In this document: piece after piece, positions 29,479-38,323 of the stretch | How positions within the stretch are numbered: the first letter of the stretch is position 1 | Layout of the letters: each line of letters opens with the position of its first letter | Source: Candidatus Zixiibacteriota bacterium | GTDB taxonomy: Bacteria > Zixibacteria > MSB-5A5 > GN15 > FEB-12 | Assembly: GCA_034003725.1 (NCBI GenBank) | Contig: JAVEYB010000005.1 | Span: 132,831 to 196,830, forward strand | DNA length: 64,000 bases | Reading direction: 5' to 3' | The notes under the pieces: generated by a model | What the model saw: only the letters and a program-made list of their open reading frames with translations | What the model was told of the DNA's origin: nothing | The model's database searches: none | Made by a program: the position numbers and the translations under genes

Positions 29479-32064
29479 TTACTGCTCCACCCGCGCCAGG
29501 ACCGATTCGAACGGATTCAGGGTGATCCGATTCGGCTGTTTGGCCAGCGGCGGCAGTGTGATGGTCTGCTGCGGGCGGTCTACCAACAGCCGGAGGTATG
29601 CTTTGCCGCCCCCTTTGAACTCAATCTCCACCGGCACGAACATCTGGAAGCCCTCCCCGACGCCGGACTGGGTGATGTCGCAGACAGCCTGGTACGTACC
29701 GTCGTCGCCGTCCGTAACCGTATACGAGAATTTGTACGTGGGGATGCTGGACCCGTAGACCCACTGGTCGAAGAACCAGCCCAGATCCATGCTGCAGTAT
29801 TTCTCGGCGATTTGCCTGAAGTCATCGGTGGTGGCGCGTTTGCCGTAGAAGATCTCGTGCCATTCTTTCAGCATGGCAAAGAACCGGCTGTCATCGAGTG
29901 TCTGCAGATCCATCAGCATGTTGCGAAGCATGTGGAGCACATAGGCCCCTTTGCGGTAAATGCTCAGCTCCTGCAGCGAGATGGTCGTGTCGATGAGCGC
30001 TTCCCGGCCGGCGGCGGTCGCGAGGTCCTGCCCGCCGAGGATTTCGGCCGGCGAGCGGCGGAACCGCACCACTCCCGCCTGATCGTTGTCGGGGTTGTCG
30101 TCACCTCCGCCCAGAGTCGTGGTAAACTCCTCGACCTCGACATTCGAGCGGTGTTCCTGCAGCGTGTAGACACTGGCGATACCGGCTTCGGCCAGCGGCT
30201 CGACTGCCTTCATATTGTAGTCGGTTTCGGTCGATGCAACGCGCCGCCCGAGAGCGATCGGGACGGAGCGGGCGGGATCACTTCCCACGAACTTGCTCAT
30301 GGCCTCGATGTCTTTGCGGTACTCGCGAAGCCACCAGAAGAAACGGTCGTTTCCTTCGGCAGCCTGCAGGTACAGCAGCGAGGAATAGACGGCGAAACTC
30401 TCGCTGAGCCAGCGATCGCGGTAGCCGTCGATCAGCACGCCGTCGCCCCACCACTGCCGCGCGACCAGGTTGGAGCGGCGCAGGCGCTGTTCCCCCCACT
30501 GGTCGGCGAGGTGTACCGCGTCCCAGTTCAGGTGGACGATACCGGGATGGCTCTCGCCGAACGGAACGAGCGTCTCGGAAACAATCAGTTTGGGCAGTCG
30601 GTAGGGTCCGAAATAATGTGTGAACAGCTTCAACGCCCCGCTGACATCTTCGGCGACGCGCTGACGCATCTGGCGCCCGCCCAGTCTTTTGTTGTCGGGG
30701 AGGTTACGCGAGACATCGCGCTTGAGCGTCTCGCTGATATACAGCTCGATCGGAGCGACATCGGTGGCATAGTCGTATTTCTCGAATTCCCCGATCGTAA
30801 ACGAAACGGCGGGGACCGGATCGCGAACCACCCAGCGGGTGATGCGCTGGTCGTTGGCCGTCCGATCCTCGGTCTTTTCGCCGGAAGCGATAAACGCAAA
30901 CACCGAGGGGGTCGTAAAGCGCATGTCAAACGTCGCACGCTGCATCAGACCGTGACGCGGGTACCAGTTGTCGCCGGCTTCCACGTTCATGATACCTTCG
31001 CGCCGCTCAACGATCTTGCCGCCGTAATAGAAGGTCAGCGCTCCGCTCTCTTCCTGATTCATCGGCCGGTCGAGAAAAAGGTACAACGAGTCGGTTTTAT
31101 TGCCCCAGTCCGTGTAGCGCAAAAACGGCAGCGAACGGCCGTCGCCGTCAACTATCGAATCGACAATGGCCTCCTCGTTGAGGTCCAGCTGCAGCATCTG
31201 GGTTTCGCTCAGCAGGGTTTCGTAGCGCATGTCCGCCCGGCATCGCATGCCGCCACCCTGATCGACGACGCTCTCGATAACGTAGTGGGTGGGCCTGATT
31301 CGCTCCCGGTTAATACCGTTGATGCGACGGTGCGTTCGATCGGCGTACACGGAGTAACTGCACACTTCTTCCATGAAAAACGAGACGAAAAACTGCTTGT
31401 AGTCTTTCAGCAGCGCCACTTCCTCGCGGTCGGCGGGATTAAAGCGATAGAATACGTGGGTTGCGTCGTCCAGGTCGGCGTCGACCAGCAGAAACGGACG
31501 TCGCTGTGGAAAGGCGAGGTTGCGAAGCGTCTCGAACAGATACATCCGGGCTTCGTTGCGGACGAGGTGCGCGTGAAGTTCCTTTAGTTTCCCGTTGGCC
31601 TCTTTGTCCCACGGCGGGTTATCCGGCAGCGCCGTCCCGGCCTGCCTGATCCAGCCGGCAATGGAGTCGTTGAACAACAGCAGCGCGTATCGTGTCGGTC
31701 GGTTCAGTGAGTCGGACTTGAAGAACAACTGAAGCTGGTTTTGTTCGATTGGCAGCGGCGGCGCAAACTGGAACAGGGCGTCGCCCACGAAGAGCGCGCC
31801 CCAGAATCGGGATTGGCCGTCGATCGTCACCGGTTCGAAGAAGTACATCCGCCCCGATGCGATTCGCAGAGCGAAATCCTGACGCTCGAGGGCGTAATCC
31901 GACAACTCGTAGACTTCGGATGGTGCGGACGGAAGAGTTTCCATGACCCGGTACACCGCCGCCAGTTCATCGGCTGTCGCTCCAAGAACCTGAGTACCGA
32001 GACCGGCACCCACCGTCACCGCGACGGCCGTCGCTATCACCAATCGTTTCATCATCAACCTCAT
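29479..32064 (-). CDS. M1-family peptidase homologue lacking the zinc site (probable pseudopeptidase)
   Basis: 861 residues with a signal peptide (residues 5-28). It aligns with its upstream paralogue across the gluzincin domain. Where that protein has HEVAHQWWG, this one reads NLVARQWWG (N532 to R536), so both zinc His and the catalytic Glu are gone. The downstream Glu of LSESFA (E555) and the QWWG context remain. It also has an insert of about 75 residues after [13 protein letters not shown] (from about residue 620) that the paralogue lacks. The frame is fully intact, so the protein is probably made and used as a binding or regulatory partner. It is the third gene of an M48-M1-M1 operon. 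Confidence 0.88.
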
Positions 32065-32099
32065 CGTATCCGTCTCAGAACCGCACGCTACGGGTCACG

Positions 32100-34397
32100 T
32101 CACTGTTTCACGCGGGCCAGCACCGCAGCAAACGGGTTCATCTTGATTTTTCTGACCGGTTTTTTGACATAGAGCGAAAACGGAGAACTCCGCTCGTCCA
32201 CCCATTTCGCCGCGTAGTCTTTACTTCGATCCGCGTACTCAATTTCAAACGGCATCAGCATGCAAAACGACTCCGAGCCGCCGTCGCGGGTGACCCTGCA
32301 ATTCGCCTGCCACCCGCCGGACACCGTATCTGCTACAATATCGTAAGCGAACCGGTATTCGGGCAACTCGTTATGATACACCCATTGATCGAAGAACCAA
32401 CCCATGTCGGTCCGCGTGTGTTTTTCGACCATACGGCGAAAGTCGGTGGTCGACACCGCCCGACCCGCGTACGTGCCGTAGAAGTCGGCCAACATCGAGA
32501 AAAACCGGCTGTCGTCGCGGGTGGTCCAATCGGTCAGGCAGGTGCGAAGCATGTGCAGCACGAGCGCGCCTTTTTTATAGATGATCAGATCATAGTCGCC
32601 TTCGGTCCTGGTCGATGCGGTGCGCCGGCCGAGAATAATCGGACCCGACTCAGCACCATCGAAAAAGAGGTATTTCCGGGCCGAAATCACCTCGTCCGCA
32701 TATTCACCGAGTTTATCATAATAACGCTCGTCGCCTTTCTCCTGTTGCAAATACAATAGCGATGCATACGTGGCGAATCCTTCGGAGAGCCACTGGTCGT
32801 GATACGTTTGGTAATCAAGCGAGCTGCCCCACCACTGGTGGGCGACCTCGTGTGAGCGGAACAGGTGGTCTTCGCCCCAGTGATCGGTGCTGACGAACGT
32901 ATTGGCGCCCATATGGATGAATCCGGGAAACGACTCGCCGTGGGGATAGATGATTTCCCCGATTACAAGTTGCTCGAAGGGAAACGCACCGAACAGCTTC
33001 GAGAAGAGCCGCACGGCCCCGACAACATCTGACCCAACGTCTTTATATACGTTGCGGCCCGACCCCTTGAGGATGTACTGGTGGAGCCACTCGTTGTAGT
33101 AGAGCGCAACCGGCGGCAATCCCGAATCGGTAAAATCGTACCGCGTGAACCAGCCGACATTGAAGGAGATGTTACGCGCGGGCCGATCGACCGTCCAGCG
33201 TGTGTACAGGGTGTCGCCGGTTGTCGCGGAATCGAGCAGCTCGGCCGAGGCGATGAGTGTAACATCGCGGGGCGTCCGAAACTTCAGGCTGTACGTGTGC
33301 CGCTGATCGAGACCGTAACGGGGATACCACGATGCGCCCGCTTCGACTTTGAATTCACCGACCTCGCGCTTCGCGATATCGCCGTGGTAGAATAACGACA
33401 GGCTGATTGAGTCTCCGGCGTGCCGGACGTCGGGCAGCAGAACGAAGAGAGCTTCGGACTTGTGCGAGTCGCTGGTGTACCGCATGAAGGGCACGGGCAA
33501 GCCGTATTCGTTGCGGATACTGTCTACCTTGAGTTTCTCATGCAGCGCCATCGGAACGAATTGCACCGTGCTGTCACGCACGGTGCAGGCGACAGTCGCG
33601 CGGCCGCGATATTCTCCCCCGCCGCTGATTGTTGCGTCGATATCGATGTGGTGTACCAGCAGCTGGTCGGTCGACGCGCCGTTTATGGTCGCGTAGGTTT
33701 CATCGATATCGCTGACATAACTGCAGACGAGCTCCATAAACCGCTCGCCGGGGATGTCGTGGTCGCGATAGAGGCTGACCGGTTCCCGACGGTACGGGTC
33801 GTACATGTATGCCGTGAGACCGCGCCGCTTGATCCGGACAATGGACAGCAGGAACGGCTCGGATCGCGGGTGGACAATCGAGCGAAGCGCAGAGAAGGTG
33901 AAAGCGTGATTTTCGTTTTGCACCAGCGGCTCCAGGAATTCATCAAACGCCTCGCGGACCGACTTCTCCGGGCGCATCTGAACCGGGAGTCCATCGTCTT
34001 CGAGAAGACTGCGAATCGAGTCGTCGCACAGAAACAAGGCCTCGCCGACCGCCTCGTCGAGCGAGTCGACATCGTAGAATCGCCGAAGCTGGTCACGCTC
34101 GATCGAGACCGGCGGCACGAACCGGAAACGTGCCCGCCCTCGGAAATAGTACGCCCAGCGGACGGGTCCGGATTCGGTGGGCACCGGGCGGGCCGGGTAC
34201 AGGGTCCCGGAGTCGATATGGAACGTATAGCTGTGGTGGACTATGGTTCGGCTGTCGATCTCGAGCGCGACCGTGTCCAGGCGGGCTTGCTGCATCTGCC
34301 GGAGCGCCTCGGTCCACACGGAGCTGTCGGCCGGCGGTTTCGCGGCGGCGACCGCGCAGAAAGCCGGGATCAGGGCTGTCAATCGAAGCCAGCGCAT
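32100..34397 (-). CDS. Secreted M1-family (gluzincin) metallopeptidase
   Basis: 765 residues from the ATG at 34397; the longer open frame to 34808 overlaps the M48 gene. A signal peptide (RLTALIPAFCAVAAA) is followed by a large N-terminal region shared with the next gene and by the gluzincin core: HEVAHQWWG (zinc ligands H516 and H520, catalytic E517) and LSEGFA with E539 exactly 18 residues after H520, the M1 spacing. It should hydrolyse peptides in the periplasm or at the surface. It begins five bases after the Ste24-like gene and is followed by a paralogue that has lost the zinc site. Confidence 0.92.
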   Translation of the reverse strand: MRWLRLTALIPAFCAVAAAKPPADSSVWTEALRQMQQARLDTVALEIDSRTIVHHSYTFHIDSGTLYPARPVPTESGPVRWAYYFRGRARFRFVPPVSIERDQLRRFYDVDSLDEAVGEALFLCDDSIRSLLEDDGLPVQMRPEKSVREAFDEFLEPLVQNENHAFTFSALRSIVHPRSEPFLLSIVRIKRRGLTAYMYDPYRREPVSLYRDHDIPGERFMELVCSYVSDIDETYATINGASTDQLLVHHIDIDATISGGGEYRGRATVACTVRDSTVQFVPMALHEKLKVDSIRNEYGLPVPFMRYTSDSHKSEALFVLLPDVRHAGDSISLSLFYHGDIAKREVGEFKVEAGASWYPRYGLDQRHTYSLKFRTPRDVTLIASAELLDSATTGDTLYTRWTVDRPARNISFNVGWFTRYDFTDSGLPPVALYYNEWLHQYILKGSGRNVYKDVGSDVVGAVRLFSKLFGAFPFEQLVIGEIIYPHGESFPGFIHMGANTFVSTDHWGEDHLFRSHEVAHQWWGSSLDYQTYHDQWLSEGFATYASLLYLQQEKGDERYYDKLGEYADEVISARKYLFFDGAESGPIILGRRTASTRTEGDYDLIIYKKGALVLHMLRTCLTDWTTRDDSRFFSMLADFYGTYAGRAVSTTDFRRMVEKHTRTDMGWFFDQWVYHNELPEYRFAYDIVADTVSGGWQANCRVTRDGGSESFCMLMPFEIEYADRSKDYAAKWVDERSSPFSLYVKKPVRKIKMNPFAAVLARVKQ

Positions 34398-34402
34398 GGT
34401 GC

Positions 34403-35707
34403 TTACGGACCGGGCGGTGAATCGTAGGATTGCACGAATGCCATACGCTTGCTCAGCGCCGGGTGCGAGTAGAACCAGAATTCGATGATGGCCGGCGGAT
34501 TCGGGTCGGACAGATTGAAAACCGACAGTTTGTCGAACGCACGCGCGGCATCCTCGCCCGACACGCCCGTGATATCCATGCCGTAAATGTCGGACTGGTG
34601 TTCCATGTACCGCGAGACCGAATTGGTAACCGGCTGGAAGACAAAGGTGATGATGGAAACGAATATCAGCACCAGGGGCAGCGAGGCGATATCCTCGAGC
34701 TTGTCGAATTTGAACGCACCCTGAAACATCCTGATCACCGGATGAATCAACAGGTCCATCAGCCAGAGCGCAAAGAGCATAAACACGATCAGGACGCCCA
34801 ACCCCCACCAGATGTGGTTCATGACGTAGTGTCCCATCTCATGGCCCATGACGAACCGGATCTCGTCGAGCGAAAAGTGTTTGATCAGCGTGTCGTACAG
34901 CACAATCCGCTTGGTGTTGAACAACCCGGTGACGTACGCGTTGACTTTCGACGATTGCCGGGACGCATCGACTTCAAACACGTCGGAGCCGTGGATACCG
35001 GCTTTGTCGGCCAGCGCCAGAATTTCGGACTCGAGCTGTTTATCTTTCAGGGGCGTGAACTCATTGAAGATCGGGCTGATGAACACCGGGGAGATCACGA
35101 CCACGACCACGACAAATGGAATGGCGCCAAGCGTAAACGCCAGCCACCACCGTTTCATGTAACCGACCAGCCAGTAGAAAAACCAGGCCGGGATGCTGCC
35201 AAGGACCAGCACGATTGCCAGATTCAGAAGGTCATCGGTCAGCCATTGCTGCAAGGTCTGGTTGGAGAAACCGAAATCATGCTCAACCATAAAATTGCGG
35301 TAGTAGTTGGCGGGGAAGCCGAGGATGTAGTCGGCGACCATTATCATGATGAAAAAGAGCCAGATGACGAAGAAACGTTTTCGGGCGGCGAAGGCCCAGG
35401 ACCGGAACTTCGCCGAGAGCCCGGTGAACAGCAGAATAGCGAGCGTGAGGATTCCGATCCCGAAAGAGACAAACCGCCAGAGATTGTTGAACTGGGAGTA
35501 GGCGATCAGCAGCTCTTTGCGTTCGGGGGAGAGCGGGTAGATCGCGTCTTCGTCCGGCTGACTTGTTTCGGTCGCAGGAACGGATATCTCGTCGGCCGGG
35601 GATTCCACCGGTACGGGTTCAGACCCAGGGGCTTGAGCGACCAACGTACCGGCACAGAGCAGGACGAGTCCCGCCGCCAGCCAAATTACGGCATATAGAG
35701 TCTTCAT
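34403..35707 (-). CDS. M48-family metalloprotease, CAAX prenyl protease (Ste24)-like
   Basis: 434 residues. A signal-like N-terminus is followed by an Asp/Glu-Pro-rich spacer, then several membrane helices. The active site FVMGHEMGHYVMNH gives H289 and H293 as zinc ligands with E290 as base, and SRYMEHQSDIYGMD supplies the third ligand (Glu). The order and length match Ste24-type enzymes, which in bacteria act on membrane or misfolded proteins. GGGAGA precedes the ATG. It is the first gene of an operon with two M1-type peptidases. Confidence 0.94.
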   Translation of the reverse strand: MKTLYAVIWLAAGLVLLCAGTLVAQAPGSEPVPVESPADEISVPATETSQPDEDAIYPLSPERKELLIAYSQFNNLWRFVSFGIGILTLAILLFTGLSAKFRSWAFAARKRFFVIWLFFIMIMVADYILGFPANYYRNFMVEHDFGFSNQTLQQWLTDDLLNLAIVLVLGSIPAWFFYWLVGYMKRWWLAFTLGAIPFVVVVVVISPVFISPIFNEFTPLKDKQLESEILALADKAGIHGSDVFEVDASRQSSKVNAYVTGLFNTKRIVLYDTLIKHFSLDEIRFVMGHEMGHYVMNHIWWGLGVLIVFMLFALWLMDLLIHPVIRMFQGAFKFDKLEDIASLPLVLIFVSIITFVFQPVTNSVSRYMEHQSDIYGMDITGVSGEDAARAFDKLSVFNLSDPNPPAIIEFWFYSHPALSKRMAFVQSYDSPPGP

Positions 35708-35873: not shown

Positions 35874-37049
35874 ATGCGACCAGCGATACCGTGCGTCGTA
35901 TTGCTGCTACTGTGTCTTGCCGCCGTCAGTGTTTCCGCTCAGAGTCAGCCCGATCTCCGCGCGCTTCTTTCACCGACGCGCCCCGATACCTGCCGTAACT
36001 ATATCCGAAATGCCCATGACTTGATTCCGCGATTGTATGACGATGGGAAGCTGGACTCGATCTGGCTGGTGATTGACTTCGTCGAACAGGAATGCGAGAC
36101 GAGCTCATTCGGGCGACTCAAGACATTGCTTCGGATCGAATCGGGGGAATACGAGAGTGATCTGTGCGACTCGGCCCTGATCGATCACGTGCTTCACGGC
36201 TACTACCGTCGGGGCGATCGGTCTCCCGACTGGCTCACACTTCTGGTATGGGGTGAGCGGATTCCGATGATCGATACCTCGGCCTACTCGCGGCTGGTCG
36301 ACAGCCTGACTACCCGGCTCATTCGGGAGACGGACTCTAGCAGCGTCGCGTATGTTATCATCATGAACTTGACGTACGACTACGCATTCATCAGGGAGAG
36401 ACTCCACCGGGGAGCATACCCCGGCACCTGCCTTCAGGAAGCGTATGACCGGGAGATCGCCTTCTGGCTGGAGCGGCGGTATCGGGGGAGGATTCATCTG
36501 GCGGCGCTTGCCGGTATCTGGATGCCTCAGCAGGCCGCGAGTGCGCTCGGCAACAAGGCCGAAGCCGGGTTCAAGATCGGCTGGCGGGGAGATCGATGGG
36601 GGGCCGAAGGGACGTTGATATTTCGCTTTCTCGAGGCCAAACGGGAGTACGTGGTGCGTCAGGACGACAAAGAGGATCGCGGCCGGAGTTTTTTCGGCGG
36701 CTATGTAGGCGCTGACCTGGCGTATGAGGCATTTCGGTCGGAGGTTCATGCGGTCAGCCTGATCGGGGGAATCGGGCTTGATGGGTTCGGGCATGGGTCA
36801 TCGAAAGACGACGACACCAGCACCGGCGGCGTGAACTCGCTGAACCTGAATATCGGCGCCGAGTATCGGCTGGCCTGCAACCGCACGCGAACCCGTTATG
36901 TCGGTTTGCAGGGGCGCTACAATGTGGTGAACTATGCAACCGGTGGTGGGACTGATTTGTCGGGCAATACCGTGTCGCTTGAGCTGGTTTACGGTGGTTT
37001 GAGCAACGCGGCTTCGAGTCGGCTGGACCGGTTGAAGTACTATGATTGA
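35874..37049 (+). CDS. Secreted protein with C-terminal beta-barrel, first of a tandem pair
   Basis: 391 residues, GGGAGGG before the ATG and a clear signal peptide (VVLLLLCLAAVSVSA). The N-terminal part (to about residue 215) is helical with paired Cys (TCRNYI, ECETSS, LCDSAL, TCLQEAY), likely disulfide-linked. The C-terminal part has alternating barrel strands and the shared motif DRGRSFFGGYVG, then TRTRYVGLQGRYNVVN and GTDLSGNTVSLEL. It is clearly homologous to the next gene. An outer-membrane or surface function is inferred; I do not recognise the family. Confidence 0.82.
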   Translation: MRPAIPCVVLLLLCLAAVSVSAQSQPDLRALLSPTRPDTCRNYIRNAHDLIPRLYDDGKLDSIWLVIDFVEQECETSSFGRLKTLLRIESGEYESDLCDSALIDHVLHGYYRRGDRSPDWLTLLVWGERIPMIDTSAYSRLVDSLTTRLIRETDSSSVAYVIIMNLTYDYAFIRERLHRGAYPGTCLQEAYDREIAFWLERRYRGRIHLAALAGIWMPQQAASALGNKAEAGFKIGWRGDRWGAEGTLIFRFLEAKREYVVRQDDKEDRGRSFFGGYVGADLAYEAFRSEVHAVSLIGGIGLDGFGHGSSKDDDTSTGGVNSLNLNIGAEYRLACNRTRTRYVGLQGRYNVVNYATGGGTDLSGNTVSLELVYGGLSNAASSRLDRLKYYD

Positions 37050-37141
37050 TCTCGCGCGAGGTAGATTTCCACTACCCATCCCGGTACCTGGGTCTTATAC
37101 TTGGGTCGACTGATCTGATGTTCAACTCCGGGAGGGTTCCT

Positions 37142-38323
37142 ATGCGGGGAGTTCCGATTCATTCAATTGTATGCCTGTTGTCATTTGCAATTGTCTCAGG
37201 CGTGTTGGCACAGGAGGACACCACCGGCATGCATGCTTTGCTGACCGAGCGGTCGACGGAGAAGTGCGACGAGTATGTGTTCAACGCGATGTTGCTCATA
37301 CCGGACATGTATCAACGCGGCCAGTCGGACTCGGTCTTGCAGCTTATCCGTTTCATAGAATCCGAATGCGATTACAGAACGTTTGCGTCGCTGAGAGAGC
37401 TCATCGCCATCTCGCACGGTGATTTCGATGGCACACTGTGTGACAGGCTTACCGTCTGTTCCCTCATCGGTGATGTACCGGGGTACGGGTGTTTCGGGAT
37501 CTACTATGTTCCCTCTGACTGGATTCAAAGGAGATACAACGGTCCACCGTCTCAGAGGTACGCCGACTTTGAGGATTCTCTCGCAAAGGAACTGCTCCGT
37601 GAGACCGACAGCACCACAGTCGCTCATTACTGGTTGCGACATTTCACGGGTGACGATTCATTCATTCTCCGCCACCTTAAAGCACGAGACTGCCCCGAGC
37701 CATGCCTGCAAGACGCCTACGATACGAGGGTAGCGGAGCTTTGTACCGAGCAGTACAACTTCCGTGCGCATCTGGGTATTATCGTGGGAGCGTGGATTCC
37801 ACAGGACGAGGCCGATGTGCTCGGACCAAAAGCCGAACTGGGCGCCAGGGCCGGGCTGTATGCCGGCCGATTTGGATTTGACGCCACGCTCGTTCTCCGA
37901 TTCCTCCGCGCCCGCGAGGAATTCGTCATCATGGACAACGACCGACCAGACAGCGGCAGGAGTTTCTTCGGCGGATACTGCGGCCTCGACTGCTCATACG
38001 AGTTGCTGAGGTCGGACCGGCATTCACTTGGTCCGCTGCTGGGTATAGGCTACGGCTGGCTCGGCCATGCTGAAAGCGGTGACAACAGCAGTCGTCCCTA
38101 TGCCGACGTACTTGACCTCAATGTTGGCTGGACCTATCGATTCGCTTACAACAGAACGCGAACAAAGTACCTCGGGCTGTCACTGCGGTTTAATCCGGTA
38201 AATTTCGGGACGGCCGGTGGCACCGATTTGTCGGGAGACGCGTTCTCAATAACCCTCATTTGGGGGTGGCTGTCTCATCCCTGGGCAACCGGAGAGTTAG
38301 AAAGATTGGGGCATTTCGAGTGA
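37142..38323 (+). CDS. Secreted protein with C-terminal beta-barrel, second of a tandem pair
   Basis: 393 residues from ATG 37142, with the same GGGAGGG ribosome site as its paralogue. Signal peptide ending around GVLAQ. Shared blocks include KCDEYVFNAMLLIPDMY, IESECDYRTFASL, LRETDSTTVAHY, DSGRSFFGGYCG, NRTRTKYLGLSLRFNPVN and GTDLSGDAFSI. Cys positions in the N-terminal half are conserved between the two, which supports structural disulfides. Divergence is considerable, so the duplication is not recent. A bidirectional terminator follows. Confidence 0.82.
   Translation: MRGVPIHSIVCLLSFAIVSGVLAQEDTTGMHALLTERSTEKCDEYVFNAMLLIPDMYQRGQSDSVLQLIRFIESECDYRTFASLRELIAISHGDFDGTLCDRLTVCSLIGDVPGYGCFGIYYVPSDWIQRRYNGPPSQRYADFEDSLAKELLRETDSTTVAHYWLRHFTGDDSFILRHLKARDCPEPCLQDAYDTRVAELCTEQYNFRAHLGIIVGAWIPQDEADVLGPKAELGARAGLYAGRFGFDATLVLRFLRAREEFVIMDNDRPDSGRSFFGGYCGLDCSYELLRSDRHSLGPLLGIGYGWLGHAESGDNSSRPYADVLDLNVGWTYRFAYNRTRTKYLGLSLRFNPVNFGTAGGTDLSGDAFSITLIWGWLSHPWATGELERLGHFE

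Follow-up and report, generated by a model that had tools for sequence, protein, structure and literature searches.

Here we describe a variation on the known pseudopeptidases: bacterial proteins with the M1 fold, probably exported and encoded beside a membrane protease of family M48, that have been inactivated repeatedly and independently. The example we followed lies in a 64,000-nucleotide stretch of DNA (the window) from a metagenome-assembled genome of the Zixibacteria (GN15), a little-studied bacterial group, and comprises an M48 gene and two M1 genes, one with an intact zinc site (M1a) and one without (M1b). To judge from its sequence, M1b is a true pseudopeptidase, having the M1 fold and lacking the means to bind a catalytic zinc or activate water. 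At least twice, an M1 encoded behind M48 has lost precisely its zinc-binding residues, with selection on the remainder staying strong; such an inactive enzyme therefore probably serves a purpose of its own.

The genes form a unit on the - strand in the order M48, M1a, M1b, with intergenic gaps of 5 and 35 bases, just as a preliminary description of the window had placed them (Table 1). The M48 protein matches Pfam PF01435 (5.8e-35) and PF16491, which covers five membrane helices (5.7e-21), both over the cut-off, and is therefore Ste24-like; with GHEMGH in its sequence, it has both the M48_N membrane domain and the HExxH-bearing M48 domain of the M48A group. Downstream of M1b, a fumarase gene (fumC) starts approximately 100 bases further on. 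Upstream of the operon and divergent from it are two tandem genes for related proteins of ~390-425 amino acids (window 35874-38323), the first with a weak match to an OMP beta-barrel; another species of the genus, G001, has three frames of this type in tandem.

Table 1. Positions in the window of the M48-M1a-M1b unit and of the residues and segments discussed
Feature	Position	Strand	Remark
M48A Ste24/CAAX-protease-like membrane metallopeptidase, 434 aa, HEMGH	34403..35707	-	first gene of unit
M1a, probably secreted M1 metallopeptidase, 765 aa	32100..34397	-	ATG at 34397, stop at 32100
M1a HEVAH zinc-binding motif, residues 516-520	32838..32852	-	sequence
M1a E539	32781-32783	-	
M1a Tyr607	32577-32579	-	
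M1b, probably secreted zinc-less M1 pseudopeptidase, 861 aa	29479..32064	-	start 32064, end 29479
M1b NLVAR replacing HExxH, residues 532-536 (NLVARQWWG)	30457..30471	-	sequence
M1b retained E555	30400-30402	-	
M1b retained Tyr703	29956-29958	-	
M1b insert, residues 615-694	29983..30222	-	between active-site helices and Tyr helix

M1a has most of the features expected of an active M1 peptidase. Its zinc site, H516-E517-V-A-H520 with E539, follows the pattern HExxH-x18-E (18 residues between), and its catalytic Tyr607 lies in IIYKKGA; this tyrosine is kept in 35 of the 36 aligned M1 proteins that keep the zinc site. The GxMEN exopeptidase motif is absent from M1a, which has GESFPGF at the corresponding place. 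The protein matches Pfam PF01433 (1.2e-17, 64.6 bits), and its AF2 model (pLDDT 89.5) returns IRAP and ERAP in Foldseek, with an E value of 2.6e-28 to IRAP, as expected of the M1 fold. An alignment of 569 residues gives 36% identity between M1a and M1b, which share a further C-terminal segment at 43% identity. Both are probably exported, as their N-termini, read by eye, resemble signal peptides.

In M1b, the positions of the HExxH motif are occupied by N532, L533, V, A, and R536, and the third-ligand position (E555) and the tyrosine position (Y703) are kept. The preliminary description had reported HEVAHQWWG with a glutamate 18 residues on in the first M1, and NLVARQWWG in a second M1 that is nevertheless intact; both readings hold. 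M1b still matches PF01433 (4.7e-8, 33.3 bits, above the cut-off of 27.7), and its AF2 model (pLDDT 83.4) matches IRAP/ERAP in Foldseek at 2.9e-26; outside one insert, the body of the protein folds like M1a and confidently as M1. The insert had been noted before as 75 residues long; it is present, but its length is closer to 80. It is modeled at pLDDT < 50, without a confident predicted structure, and its length does not vary within the genus: all three species have 90 residues from one flanking landmark to the other, with 73% and 57% identity.

The loss of the zinc site is an established trait of the genus. The M48-M1a-M1b trio with N[LM]VAR is found in all three species, i.e., the host, G001 (MAG50; NLVARQWWG), and G002 (NMVARQWWG, same gene order), all of which have lost the zinc ligands and the general base (N532, L/M533, R536). 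The preliminary description had suggested checking related genomes for a conserved loss of HExxH; within the genus it is conserved, and M1b is under strong purifying selection as well. A truncated zinc-less copy, which would have counted against the interpretation given there, was not found in the other species of the genus; the M1b of G002 is split by contig ends, with both pieces open up to those ends. Across 132 genomes from the phylum, a DNA pattern for VARQWWG matches four times, namely, in the three species of the genus and in G077, which belongs to a second genus, and the reversed control pattern has zero matches in the same genomes; the pattern detects this replacement only and misses other replacements in unsampled M1 proteins. 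Between species pairs, M1b has dN of 0.18-0.22 and dS of 1.1-1.4, for a dN/dS of roughly 0.13-0.20 in a frame without stops, ratios that are only rough because dS is near saturation. The corresponding dN values are 0.29-0.38 for M1a and 0.17-0.24 for M48. By dN, constraint is thus stronger on the dead copy than on the active one. A sequencing artefact as the source of NLVAR was ruled out because three species share the change. That M1b is a decaying pseudogene, or its motif an assembly error, is extremely improbable: loss of catalytic residues alone would suit early decay, but three species share the replacement, the frames are full length, dN/dS is low, the gene evolves more slowly than the active copy, and some 80 insert residues are kept at constant length, which together rule it out.

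The link between M48 and M1 extends well beyond this genus. We compared 54 genomes of the same taxonomic family, 38 of which have a Ste24-like M48. In 18 genomes from nine genera, an M1 of the M1a/M1b subfamily follows the M48 gene on the same strand, and several of these pairs overlap start-stop by 4 bases, so the linkage suggested earlier is recurrent. The common arrangement is M48 with one M1, usually with an intact HExxH. Many relatives have the M48 without an M1 of this subfamily; therefore, the M48/M1 pathway link is not obligatory.

Two relatives are especially informative. In G077, the sole M48-linked M1 (L159:8181-10523, G077:C19) reads AREVARQWWG...WLSD, having lost all three zinc ligands, and its congeners G005 and G033 retain HEVAHQWWG...WLSE. 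Elsewhere, the G077 genome still encodes a distant M1 with HEVLH, but no active M1 of the subfamily was found in it, so this lineage does not need a strict partnership of the M1a kind. In G017, two tandem M1 copies are sisters of each other (100/100), and the duplicate (L043:3676-6330, G017:C12) keeps HExxH and has Asp in place of the catalytic Tyr. It also carries an insert where M1b has one, but the two inserts resemble each other no more than expected by chance (the score is reached by 61, 371, and 803 of 2000 shuffles). The M48-M1 linkage in G017 is likely: the genes are on separate contigs whose ends look compatible, with no sequence overlap. A search for orthologous operons in which both M1 copies keep HExxH found none, as the preliminary description would have it, the G017 pair being a separate duplication. 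That description had gone on to propose that an active and a dead peptidase form a functional module with the membrane protease. The part concerning a functional dead copy stands, but the active-dead pair is not a general unit, because most relatives have M48 with one intact M1 and G077 has M48 with one dead M1. G047:C5 (L062:2637-5141) encodes a further M1 protein, of 834 aa, that has lost the zinc motif (TYAARQWFG); next to it, on the opposite strand, are frames that read as an intact M1 (HELAHQWWG).

The losses are confined almost entirely to the catalytic residues. As a reference set, we took the 48 alignment columns that are ≥95% conserved among the 36 HExxH keepers. M1b deviates at 4 of these (H, E, H, and one Arg), and the G077 protein at 3, which are exactly the three zinc ligands; the chance that random departures among the 48 columns would hit the five catalytic columns in this way is ∼0.002 and 0.0006 (hypergeometric). 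The second G017 copy deviates at a single column, the catalytic Tyr. On a tree of the complete sequences, two independent zinc losses are counted, and a single loss shared by G077 and M1b is rejected (AU p 1.4e-4), as is orthology of the second G017 copy with M1b (AU p 6e-144). Going by this phylogeny, the zinc site has been lost beside the same M48 independently at least twice. M1b branches with the sole M1 of G016, which is intact and comes from another genus, with moderate support (90/84), and that pair then joins the M1a group (91/90); therefore, the M1a/M1b duplication is probably older than the genus, though the long M1b stem calls for caution. M1b as a simple sister of M1a is likewise rejected under the model (p 2.4e-4), with the same caution about its stem.

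In these bacteria, M1-like proteins without a zinc site have persisted over the long term. The host genome encodes a second secreted M1-like protein of 738 amino acids (G000:C7 ∼88915-91131; L261:8916-11132; L074:4916-7132), and at E ≤ 1e-40, members of its protein family occur in 53 of the 54 genomes compared. At the same threshold, matches outside the taxonomic family are to other M1 proteins only, mostly in the C-terminal part. HExxH was kept in none of the 30 members examined, and in about 28 of them the second His is replaced by Arg or Lys. This second family is scarcely recognised by Pfam.

What might M1b do? Our best reading, which we would put at an even chance, is that it has a noncatalytic peptide-binding or regulatory role in an M48/M1 pathway. 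The M48 and M1 proteins may act on the same polypeptides at the membrane or in the periplasm, where M48 would cut, the intact M1 would trim, and the zinc-less M1, without cutting, would keep peptides or unfolded stretches bound within its cleft or modulate its neighbours. In the simplest form of this idea, the chains bound would be those that M48 releases or handles. In most lineages, one M1 protein would do both the catalytic and the binding jobs; in this genus, a duplicate would have taken over binding, and in G077, the binding job alone would remain. The recurrent change of His to Arg at the second ligand, with an acidic third ligand kept (Glu/Asp), suggests that Arg sits in the metal's place, and in M1b, Arg536 could do so by pairing with Glu555. 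It is tempting to extend this further: an M1 behind the Ste24-like protease would have a selected noncatalytic role, catalysis would be dispensable, the zinc site would be removed repeatedly with Arg replacing the second His and standing in for the metal, and the same would have happened earlier and completely in the second M1-like family. We offer this wider picture only tentatively.

Other roles for M1b need to be weighed. It could act on its own as a secreted binding protein or chaperone that has nothing to do with the activity of M48 and M1a and simply stayed in the operon. A dead M1 without an active relative of its subfamily, as in G077, would fit such a role, as would the second zinc-less family, which is unlinked to M48 in the neighbourhood read in the host's own genome. 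However, none of the three species in the genus departs from the gene order of the operon, and in G077, too, the dead copy lies behind M48; we consider this explanation rather unlikely.

Alternatively, M1a and M1b could be an obligate heterodimer, with the dead subunit serving to shape the chamber or to recognise substrate, by analogy with the alpha and beta subunits of M16B peptidases. M1 enzymes close their cleft within a single chain, which speaks against such an arrangement, as do the relatives with a single M1 of either state, the position of M1b outside a direct sister relationship with M1a, and the faster evolution of M1a than of M1b, which is atypical for a tight obligate pair. In its favor, the M1a and M1b genes are adjacent, their products are homologous and both probably exported, and bacterial M16B has adjacent active/inactive pairs (TTHA1264/1265, SPH2681/2682, and AlbF/AlbE; PMC12731061). 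We consider a heterodimer rather unlikely. That M1b hydrolyses something by another mechanism is very improbable: Glu555, Tyr703, and the fold are retained, but all three species lack the two His ligands and the Glu that acts as general base, so the known gluzincin mechanism cannot run.

These proteins should also be useful experimentally. Close relatives provide a natural series in which the M48-linked M1 is intact, lacks only the zinc ligands, or lacks only the Tyr. Such a series separates the role of the fold from that of the chemistry and supplies matched proteins for binding and activity tests.

To our knowledge, M16 pairs account for most of the pseudopeptidases known in bacteria, and the literature that we searched yielded no paper on M48-M1 operons or on bacterial M1 proteins without a zinc site. 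The window M48 has PF16491, PF01435, and HEMGH in common with Ste24/CAAX protease and HtpX, and differs from them in being encoded beside secreted M1 proteins. The best Foldseek and sequence matches of the M1 proteins are IRAP, ERAP, PepN, and two-domain bacterial M1 enzymes (PDB 6a8z and 6iff), with which they share the M1 fold and the layout of the zinc site. They differ from these in the N-terminal part (in M1a, HExxH begins at residue 516) and in lacking a canonical GxMEN string, and identity in the fold matches is 12-15%. In M16B, neighbouring bacterial genes encode zinc-bearing and zinc-less copies of one peptidase family (PMC12731061, PMC11266112), and these pairs, like mitochondrial processing peptidase, resemble M1a/M1b in being adjacent active and dead homologues. 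However, fold and family are different, and the dead half of M16B builds the chamber; moreover, the M1a/M1b pair occurs only within the genus, with a single M1, active or dead, elsewhere. The yeast M1 protein Tma108 has a substrate pocket thought to bind rather than cut (PMC11266112) and is thus like the proposed M1b in using the M1 fold for binding. Tma108 keeps its zinc site, has lost a substrate-binding residue, and is ribosome-associated, whereas M1b, a probable exported protein encoded behind M48, has lost its zinc site.
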